Source: Chloroflexota bacterium
GTDB taxonomy: Bacteria; Chloroflexota; Anaerolineae; Anaerolineales; Villigracilaceae
NCBI GenBank assembly: GCA_013388855.1
Contig: JACAEM010000009.1
Location: 1 to 64,000, forward strand
Reading direction: 5' to 3'
DNA: 64,000 bases
Positions 43,890 to 54,848 of this stretch are shown here, in pieces. The position numbers and the translations under genes are program-made. The notes under the pieces are model-generated. The model was not told the origin of the DNA, did no database searches, and saw only the letters and a program-made list of their open reading frames with translations. Positions within the stretch are counted from its first letter, which is position 1; each line of letters begins with the position of its first letter.

Positions 43890-44627
43890 TTATGTTCTTT
43901 TTCTCCACCTTGTGATCAGCATCTTTACCTTCACGCGCACTTGACTATCTGCATTGGCCAGCGCCCAGGCGGAACGCGTGGCGCGACGCGTCTCTTCGTC
44001 AAGGCTGACGAAGTTTTCCCATTCTTCATCGATCCATTCCTCCATTTTGCTGGCTGAATCCCATGCGTAGTGAATGGAAAAGAATTCCTCGTGCTCGCGA
44101 AGGAACCAACCATGCGCTTCGGCATTTGCCATTGCCTGGTTGGCGGCGGTATCATCTGCCAGCCCAAGTGGCAGGTCGGTGACGCGACCCGTCTCTCGCG
44201 TTTCTCGGGCAGAGATCACTTCCACGCGCCACTGGTCAACAATGGGGCGCAGGTCGATCAGGAAACCGTCTGGTACGAGCACTCTTCGAATTTCATTCAG
44301 GGCATGGACCATGCCCTCGTGCTGAATTCATCAGAACGACCAGGCAAAGATCGCCATGTCAAAAGTCGCTTTTTGGAACGGTAAATTCTCGGATTCTGCG
44401 TTCACAAAATGGACTTTGGTTTCCAGCCTGGCGGGTCGATCCACGGTTGCGACGCGTAATGCGTTACGATCCAGATCGATACCGATGGTCACAGCAGATG
44501 ATTTTGCATAACGTCGGGTCAGCCTCCCCTCGCCACAGCCAATCTCCAACACGCGCCTGTCAGTGAAATCTGCGAAACTGTGTAGGTGTTTTGTTTCGTT
44601 CTGTTCCGGGTCTTTTTGAACGGTCAT
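43890..44627 (-). CDS. SAM methyltransferase with two consecutive in-frame TGA codons (selenoprotein candidate or pseudogene)
   Basis: The frame reads as one 245-codon methyltransferase if codons 99 and 100 (TGA TGA, 44333-44328) are read through. Upstream are motif I VLEIGCGEGRLTRRYA, motif II-like IGIDLDRNAL and FDMAIFAWSF. After the two TGA codons the frame continues without a shift as IQHEGMVHALNEIRRVLVPDG, the expected post-III motif. No other damage is visible. Ten bases after the second TGA a 7-bp stem with a GGTCC loop resembles a bacterial SECIS. So the gene could insert two selenocysteines, or be newly inactivated. A start at the internal ATG (44312) would lack the SAM-binding half. 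Start ATG 44627 is preceded by a weak ribosome site. Confidence 0.75.
44299..44317 (-). promoter_or_regulatory. SECIS-like hairpin in methyltransferase
   Basis: AGGGCAT, loop GGTCC and ATGCCCT form a perfect 7-bp hairpin. Its stem begins ten bases after the second TGA and its loop opens with G, in line with bacterial SECIS rules. Confidence 0.55.
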
Positions 44628-45985: not shown

Positions 45986-46612
45986 CTATCCTGTCCCAAA
46001 CTGTCTATCCCCCGCATCACCCAGCCCAGGGACAATGTAGGCACGGTCGTTGAGGTGATCATCAATGGCGGCGATGTGAATATCGATATCGGGGTGCTGG
46101 TCCTGCATGGCTTTGATGCCTTCCGGCGCGGCGATGAGTCCGACGAATTTGATGCGCTTGGCGCCCCATTTCTTCAATACATCGGCAGTGGCAGTGGCCG
46201 ATCCGCCGGTGGCAAGCATCGGGTCCAGGATCAAACACACCGATACTCTCGGCTCCAAGGGGAGTTTGTTGTAATACTCCACCGGGCGCAGGGTGTGTTC
46301 ATCACGGTATAAACCGATATGCCAGACTTCGGCGCTGGGCATCAATTCCCAGAAACCTTCCACCAGCCCCAGCCCGGCGCGCAGGATGGGGACAAGACCG
46401 ATCTTCTCTTTTAGCTCTTGCCCAACCATGTGAGCAAGCGGGGTATCTAATTCACGAGGCATGGTTGCCAGATCGGCAGTCGCTTCGTAGGCAAGCAGCC
46501 CGGCAATTTCGCGCACAAGTTCTCGGAACTTCTTGGGTTCGGTTTTGATGTCTCTTAATCGGGAAAGTTTATGGGCAACGAGCGGGTGTTTTGACGCATA
46601 CACATTGGACAT
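45986..46612 (-). CDS. upp: Uracil phosphoribosyltransferase
   Basis: The 208-residue enzyme makes UMP from uracil and PRPP. Hallmarks are [14 protein letters not shown], the PRPP loop [19 protein letters not shown], and the C-terminal [18 protein letters not shown]-like sequence ([19 protein letters not shown]). GGAGG upstream of the ATG at 46612 fixes the start. Length is normal. It salvages uracil that the nucleoside phosphorylase at 62692 could release. Confidence 0.97.
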
Positions 46613-46718
46613 GGTCGCCTCCAAAAATGGGTTACTTTATTATAGCCCGCAAGGTGATTTTTGACCCGTGACTTCCCCTGGCTTTTTTCGTACATTTAAA
46701 ATGAGCAAGGAGACCATC

Positions 46719-54569: not shown

Positions 54570-54578
54570 ACAATTGCT

Positions 54579-54661
54579 CCGATAAAAGGCAAAATCACGC
54601 GAAAGTGTGACGACGCAAAGCCTTGGGTCTAAAGCTGAACTGAGCCATGATTGCCAGGCTG
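54579..54661 (+). ncRNA. c-di-GMP-I (GEMM) riboswitch aptamer 1
   Basis: The unit reads GGCAAA, then a GAAA-capped stem TCACGC/GTGTGA, then ACGCAAAGCC, GGGTCTAAAG and GCCAGGCTGCCGA. These match the GEMM-I consensus in order and spacing (83 nt). It is the first of three. Confidence 0.88.
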
Positions 54662-54749
54662 CCGATAAAAGCAAAATCCCCGAAAGGGGACGGCACAGAG
54701 TTCGGCATCTAAAATCGACGCACGTTGTCGATCAAGATCGACCAACCAA
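54662..54749 (+). ncRNA. c-di-GMP-I riboswitch aptamer 2 (diverged)
   Basis: The same order is kept: GCAAA, a perfect TCCCC-GAAA-GGGGA stem, then a changed ACGGCACAGAG in place of ACGCAAAGCC, CATCTAAAAT, a long P3-type hairpin ATCGACG/CGATC region, and CCAACCAACCGA. Binding may be weaker or altered. Confidence 0.7.
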
Positions 54750-54839
54750 CCGAAACGCAAATCCGGGAAAACCCGGAGACGCAAAGTCATGGGTCTACAG
54801 TCACGATCATTATTGTGACCACGATTGCCAGACTGCCGA
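54750..54839 (+). ncRNA. c-di-GMP-I riboswitch aptamer 3
   Basis: CGCAAA, stem TCCGGG/CCCGGA with an AAAA loop, GACGCAAAGTC, GGGTCTACAG, a GTCACGAT/ATTGTGAC hairpin and GCCAGACTGCCGA match the GEMM-I consensus closely. Confidence 0.88.
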
Positions 54840-54848
54840 AGAGCATTT

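Follow-up and report, generated by a model that had tools for sequence, protein, structure and literature searches.

The stretch of DNA analysed here (the window; 64,000 nucleotides, positions 1 to 64,000 of the forward strand of contig JACAEM010000009.1 in assembly GCA_013388855.1 of a Chloroflexota bacterium) contains, on the minus strand at 43890..44627, a gene of 245 codons in which two adjacent in-frame UGA codons are followed by a hairpin. On the basis of comparative sequence analysis we conclude, with a probability of about 90%, that this gene is functional and specifies a bacterial selenoprotein, namely a class I S-adenosylmethionine (SAM) methyltransferase, in which both UGAs are read as selenocysteine (Sec, U). 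It would add a selenoprotein family that in the genomes examined nearly always carries Sec, and usually a Sec-Sec dyad, at the probable methyl-transfer site.

Two adjacent UGA codons in an intact methyltransferase gene

Read from 44627 to 43890, the gene forms a single frame that ends with a TAA (43892-43890) and has as its only internal stops the TGA at 44333-44331 (codon 99, the putative first Sec of the dyad) and the TGA at 44330-44328 (codon 100, the putative second Sec). The first-pass annotation, made from the sequence alone, had described adjacent TGAs in an otherwise intact methyltransferase frame, and re-reading of the exact frame bore this out, no further stop being present before the TAA. 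Translation table 11, in which UGA is a stop, cuts the gene into two open reading frames (ORFs), and standard gene calling that treats UGA as a stop splits it in the same manner. When the dyad is read through, the protein matches the Pfam domains Methyltransf_25 (66.6 bits; cut-off 27) and Methyltransf_11 (63.7 bits; cut-off 21.2). The Pfam match starts at residue 26, which is also the first residue of the SAM-binding motif I (VLEIGCGEGRL, residues 26-36, 44520..44552 on the minus strand), and E28, G30, G32 and G34 of this motif are nearly invariant in an alignment of 54 family members. The AlphaFold model (predicted local distance difference test, pLDDT, 95.3; predicted template modelling score, pTM, 0.89) has a Rossmann-like methyltransferase fold, which together with motif I identifies a class I SAM methyltransferase; its best structural matches are YcgJ, BH2331 and TleD (VIA Z 21-22; up to 22.2 with 1xxl).

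Comparison of the gene with those of six close relatives gave 0.19-0.27 non-synonymous (dN) and 1.6-2.2 synonymous (dS, near saturation) substitutions per site, which indicates purifying selection. The first-pass annotation had named decay of the gene in close relatives as an outcome that would speak against its proposal; such decay was not seen in these six. Under the standard reading the two in-frame stops would mark a decaying pseudogene, and this explanation was rejected as hardly credible: the TGAs of the dyad are the only in-frame stops in all 55 matches described below, the gene is under purifying selection and the hairpin that follows the dyad is conserved.

UGA or Cys codons at the dyad throughout the family

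A search with the read-through protein in 150 related genomes recovered 55 matches in 48 of them (E<=1e-20). Every match contained one (20 matches) or two (35 matches) in-frame TGAs and no other stop, and all these TGAs were situated in the dyad, preceded by Ser-Leu or Ser-Phe: 35 dyads were UU, 14 UC and 6 CU (C denoting cysteine, Cys). A profile search in 400 genomes of the phylum (E<=1e-25) yielded 51 matches in 46 genomes, each with one or two TGAs, the position of which was inspected in those loci that were fetched. At least 283 relatives were found in a scan of named genomes, mostly in lineages labelled Chloroflexota and also on contigs labelled Acidobacteria, Gemmatimonadales, KSB1, Phycisphaerae, Binatia, Armatimonadetes and Acidimicrobiia; these are labels of metagenome-assembled genomes, for which binning errors are possible, and one member labelled "Solirubrobacterales" (L090) is placed next to an Anaerolineales sequence in the tree. 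On viral contigs only seven weak methyltransferase matches were obtained, each covering a portion of the query at 20-39% identity.

Among 112 non-redundant members the dyad was UU in 76, UC in 27, CU in 8 and CC in 1, each of the two columns holding a TGA or a Cys codon in 112/112 and no other residue being present. The set comprises the top of each search, including the best 80 of the at least 283 named relatives, and its proportions should not be taken as population frequencies; it predates loci L181-L206, and the second segment of L148 was dropped, having a gap at the dyad. The alignment of homologues that the first-pass annotation had suggested as a check has thus returned Sec-Sec, Sec-Cys, Cys-Sec and rarely Cys-Cys, with no residue other than Sec or Cys in the 112 members and the three genomes with Cys-Cys forms discussed below. 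A tree constructed with the dyad masked required at least 21 state changes, an earlier tree likewise giving 21, whereas 200 shuffles needed 33 on average and never fewer than 29, and on this evidence the dyad state is inherited yet often switched. Seven of the 150 related genomes (G004, G005, G019, G022, G026, G046 and G091) carry two family members, which in G004, G005, G026 and G046 are a UU copy closer to the window protein and a distant CU copy. The natural series of UU, UC, CU and CC forms constitutes a ready-made experiment.

These variants bear on the alternative that only one of the UGAs is decoded as Sec, while at the other a near-cognate tRNA is used or translation mostly stops, so that mainly single-Sec or truncated products would be made. 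Single-Sec variants do exist, and recoding of UGA by a selenocysteine insertion sequence (SECIS) is reported to proceed in vivo at 30-40% (PMC4513850), which would make two successive events costly. On the other hand, UU is the commonest state (76/112) and occurs across the family tree, each of the two positions is Sec in one of the single-Sec classes, and Cys is the only alternative residue in the members examined. We consider decoding of a single UGA very unlikely.

Cys-Cys forms look rare, because all nine matches retrieved with one Cys-Cys member as query (L197; matches in 7 of 380 genomes) carry TGA. Another Cys-Cys member (L117), used as query among 300 relatives, had matches in 87 genomes, and the only ones without TGA were in G575, which is the genome of the query itself (100% identical), in G573 and in G124 (28% identity). 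These three genomes have Cys-Cys, encoded by TGT or TGC, at the dyad.

A SECIS-like hairpin follows the dyad

The SECIS-like hairpin (44299..44317, minus strand) starts 10 nucleotides (nt) past the second UGA, encodes EGMVHAL and reads AGGGCAT-GGTCC-ATGCCCT. It can be drawn as 7 base pairs (bp) around GGTCC or as 8 bp around a GTC triloop (apical GUC at 44309-44307), and the perfect 7-bp stem with GGTCC loop, 10 bases past the second TGA, that the first-pass annotation had pointed out is exact in the sequence. The minimum free energy (MFE) of the 40 nt that follow the dyad is -14.8 kcal/mol, and the loop, the first base of which is a G, begins at a distance of 21 nt from the first UGA and 18 nt from the second. 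The published model for the bacterial SECIS (bSECIS) describes a loop of 3-9 nt, a stem of 4-16 bp, a G in loop positions 1-2, a distance between UGA and loop of 16-37 nt and an MFE <= -7.5 (PMC13188914). With its GUC loop and 8-bp stem, the window hairpin falls within these constraints for both UGAs.

The hairpin is conserved among the Sec-encoding members. At least five contiguous bp, counted from the loop, are formed in 101 of 111 such members, whereas 1000 random synonymous recodings reached this in 38.5 members on average and in 54 at most (codon use taken from the compared segments themselves, G-U counted as a pair), and the MFE is -7.5 or lower in 110 of 111. With columns numbered from the dyad and no gaps allowed, standard pairing occurs in 109-111 of 111 members for each of the six pairs from 23-29 to 18-34, in 102 members for pair 24-28, which closes the loop, and in 83 members for pair 17-35, the outermost. 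Columns 19 and 33 combine as GC in 64 members, as AT in 44 and as GT in 2, and are unpaired in 1. Covariation was assessed on nine rows that were picked for variety, which favours covariation (the pairing count over 111 members was not so picked). In these rows 98.6% of the cells are paired (slid controls at most 52.8%), changes on both sides of the stem affect 5 of 8 pairs (five being reached by 34 of 500 shuffles), and 15 cells show such two-sided changes (reached by 0 of 500 shuffles).

In the three Cys-Cys genomes the hairpin is not preserved. Where the Sec members have GMVHAL, the peptides downstream of Cys-Cys are EDKIDAL (G575), EDKLDAL (G573) and PDQAMAL (G124), and 4, 5 and 4 of the 8 in-register stem pairs are left, respectively, none of them adjoining the loop; the 40-nt folds in G575 and G573 reach -1.1 and -2.0 kcal/mol. 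The peptide MVHAL is strictly conserved in the 54-member alignment, and this conservation appears to be imposed at least partly by the RNA, because the Cys-Cys homologues without the perfect stem have other peptides and because Sec members with variant peptides (e.g. GVVHAL, SVGDTL, SVVDAL) retain the hairpin through compensating changes. The hairpin persists in the natural UC and CU genes, where the only UGA precedes the loop by 21 nt (UC) or 18 nt (CU). Since each spacing is used alone in these genes, a single hairpin may well serve SelB for both Sec insertions, one after the other, in the UU genes. Taken together, the occurrence of U/C variants at the dyad only, the purifying selection and a hairpin within the bSECIS limits support the di-selenocysteine motif that the first-pass annotation had proposed.

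Selenocysteine machinery

The genome that contains the window (99.24% complete) encodes a full Sec system. SelA (544.6 bits), SelB (343.3 bits) and SelD (348.2 bits) all exceed their cut-offs, as does tRNA-Sec (68.4 bits; cut-off 47), and the SelB gene (C27:76811-78694) shares its contig with the window. The selD gene has an in-frame TGA of its own, in SACAGU (L193 1501 onward; G000:C20:63611-64543, plus strand). In the sample of 400 phylum genomes SelB was recovered (E<=1e-60) from 311, namely from 43 of the 46 with the methyltransferase gene and from 268 of the 354 others (Fisher p=0.004). A genome-wide reassignment of UGA to an ordinary amino acid, e.g. Trp or Cys, has nothing in its favour beyond the open frame. 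The alternative residue at the dyad is Cys and not Trp, the full Sec system is present, and the hairpin accompanies UGA, whereas the Cys-Cys members use TGT/TGC without a perfect stem; reassignment was rejected on these grounds and its probability is negligible.

Several observations weigh against the reading of both UGAs as Sec under control of the hairpin. Among the Sec-encoding members L145 folds poorly (-4.6 kcal/mol), nine do not form the pair that closes the loop and in L136 no more than two pairs are contiguous, and the Cys-Cys homologue of G124 still folds a shorter, bulged stem (-12.2 kcal/mol per 40 nt). SelB is retained in G575 and G573, so that the change to Cys in these two was not preceded by loss of the Sec system, and SelB is missing at E<=1e-60 in 3 of the 46 gene-bearing genomes: G190, which has a SelB fragment at a contig end, G236, where the match is partial and contains two TAA, and G414, which has only weaker partial matches, one of them at a contig end. 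In the Cys-Cys genome G124 (86% complete) no SelB match over the cut-off was found, but an 81-bit fragment lies at a contig end and the absence is uncertain.

Position and possible role of the dyad

Residues 99-100 are located, in the AlphaFold model, in a short helical turn after strand beta-4 (89-95). Alignment of the family profile to a fragment of RebM (hhalign) places the dyad without gaps on His-His (RebM residues 140-141 by count), and in the profile alignment to TleD the dyad columns hold Cys-His. In WbdD a vicinal His-His pair surrounds the SAM methyl. The alignment with the His-His of RebM and the location of the like pair in WbdD make it probable that the Sec residues are situated at the methyl-transfer site; judged by the alignment, Sec-Sec would take the place of the vicinal His-His of RebM in the turn after beta-4. 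Less favourable to this placement is a phmmer single-sequence alignment, in which a 3-residue gap is opened in the strand and the RebM His pair is shifted by three columns.

Since the single-Sec variants put Sec at either position, the two residues most likely work jointly, forming a chelate or a dichalcogenide, rather than with one residue as sole nucleophile. We tentatively suggest, at somewhat less than even odds, that a vicinal bis-selenolate holds a soft acceptor that is to be methylated, such as a compound of a metal, metalloid or chalcogen. A soft acceptor is favoured because the families with a CU motif in a recent catalogue (see below) include SaoL, SaoC, HgcA and MbdU, which by name are linked to metals or organometals. 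That the substrate is indeed a metal or metalloid, as the first-pass annotation proposed, is a guess, and it has against it that no link of neighbouring genes to metals was found in 81 clustered loci and 18 loci read by eye; the family matches do not point to such a substrate either. A farther-reaching scheme would have one hairpin give rise to a natural bacterial Sec-Sec active site of the ping-pong type, in which a selenolate of the dyad is methylated by SAM and the resulting Se-methyl-selenocysteine passes the methyl on to a soft acceptor that the neighbouring residue holds. It is a long shot, and we know of no ping-pong methyltransferase that employs such a Se-methyl-selenocysteine relay.

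With the Sec reading kept, the dyad could also be a redox device that alternates between a bis-selenol form and a diselenide or selenylsulfide form, and that switches the enzyme or reduces a disulfide or an oxidised substrate before methylation. The occurrence of Sec at either position (UC, CU) fits a dichalcogenide pair, and a majority of the uncharacterised selenoproteins is considered likely to be redox-active (reviewed in PMC13188914). However, the dyad is not CxxC-like, the methyltransferase does not have a thioredoxin fold and the dyad is at the probable methyl-transfer site, and we hold a redox role to be unlikely, if a serious contender. The family further raises the questions of how one SECIS can serve two adjacent UGAs and why chemistry beside SAM would require one or two selenols.

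Gene neighbourhood

The neighbourhood was compared by clustering the ORFs of 80 named loci and the window, Pfam being applied to the window genes only. A uracil phosphoribosyltransferase (UPRTase) gene is found at 45986-46624 (minus strand), and in 31 of the 81 loci a like gene lies upstream in the same orientation; an alcohol dehydrogenase gene recurs in 20 of 81. Both associations probably represent shared chromosomal order, and no function is indicated by them. In the 18 loci inspected by eye, mostly from deeper branches, no gene recurred within 1.5 kb except between L141 and L149, which have common neighbours. Elsewhere in the window two tandem c-di-GMP-I riboswitches are present (54578-54666 and 54746-54840, plus strand; 70.8 and 68.4 bits), 79 nt apart.

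Comparison with known systems

NCBIfam release 20.0 gave 52 matches to the window protein, and all of the 25 listed scored below cut-off. The best by sequence was the corrinoid-associated methyltransferase CpaM (NF043040; 60.7 bits, cut-off 180). Over the 54-member alignment the commonest matches were CpaM (49), UbiE (41), DVU_1556 (39) and MduS (12), scores relative to the cut-offs having been seen for the window protein only. The families that likewise combine a methyltransferase domain with Sec, one of which (ArsM) acts on a soft element, also scored below cut-off: MduS (NF045649) 33.7 bits (cut-off 380), ArsM/AhpD (NF041537) 34.1 bits (cut-off 510), ArsM/DUF2284 (NF041536) 28.4 bits (cut-off 575) and the MTase/UXPK-star double selenoprotein (NF047649) 26.6 bits (cut-off 460). 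The motifs listed for this group are CxxU or UxxG and not adjacent Sec (PMC13188914). A search of 350 Chloroflexota genomes for MduS (E<=1e-30) recovered it from none.

The same source is the 2026 catalogue of 119 prokaryotic selenoprotein families, the consulted part of which gives Sec methyltransferases with UxxG, with CxxU or with no motif and lists no adjacent Sec-Sec (some two-Sec families having no motif given); Chloroflexi are not mentioned in its main text (PMC13188914). A text search of the deep-Sep paper gave no mention of methyltransferase, and in the openly licensed literature that was searched no report of a UU methyltransferase family was found.

Adjacent residues of a related kind do occur in other proteins. 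SaoL, SaoC, HgcA and MbdU have an adjacent Cys-Sec pair and are tied by name or system to metals or organometals; they are other proteins, with one Sec per pair, and CU is present also in a 2Fe-2S protein and in KCU-star (Table 1 of PMC13188914). Two consecutive Sec residues are reported for the algal PDI_e with its GUGUU motif, which was claimed as the first such case; this is a eukaryotic protein of the protein disulfide isomerase family and not a methyltransferase (PMC7539508). The group-1 methyltransferases RebM and WbdD share the fold class and have a vicinal pair that aligns with Sec-Sec (RebM) or is located at the SAM methyl (WbdD), but this pair is His-His where the window protein would have Sec-Sec, and the substrates are a sugar (RebM) and a sugar phosphate (WbdD). 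The kinds to which the window gene would belong, that of the bacterial selenoproteins and that of the class I methyltransferases, are thus both known, and what appears to be new is the adjacent Sec dyad, putatively served by one hairpin.
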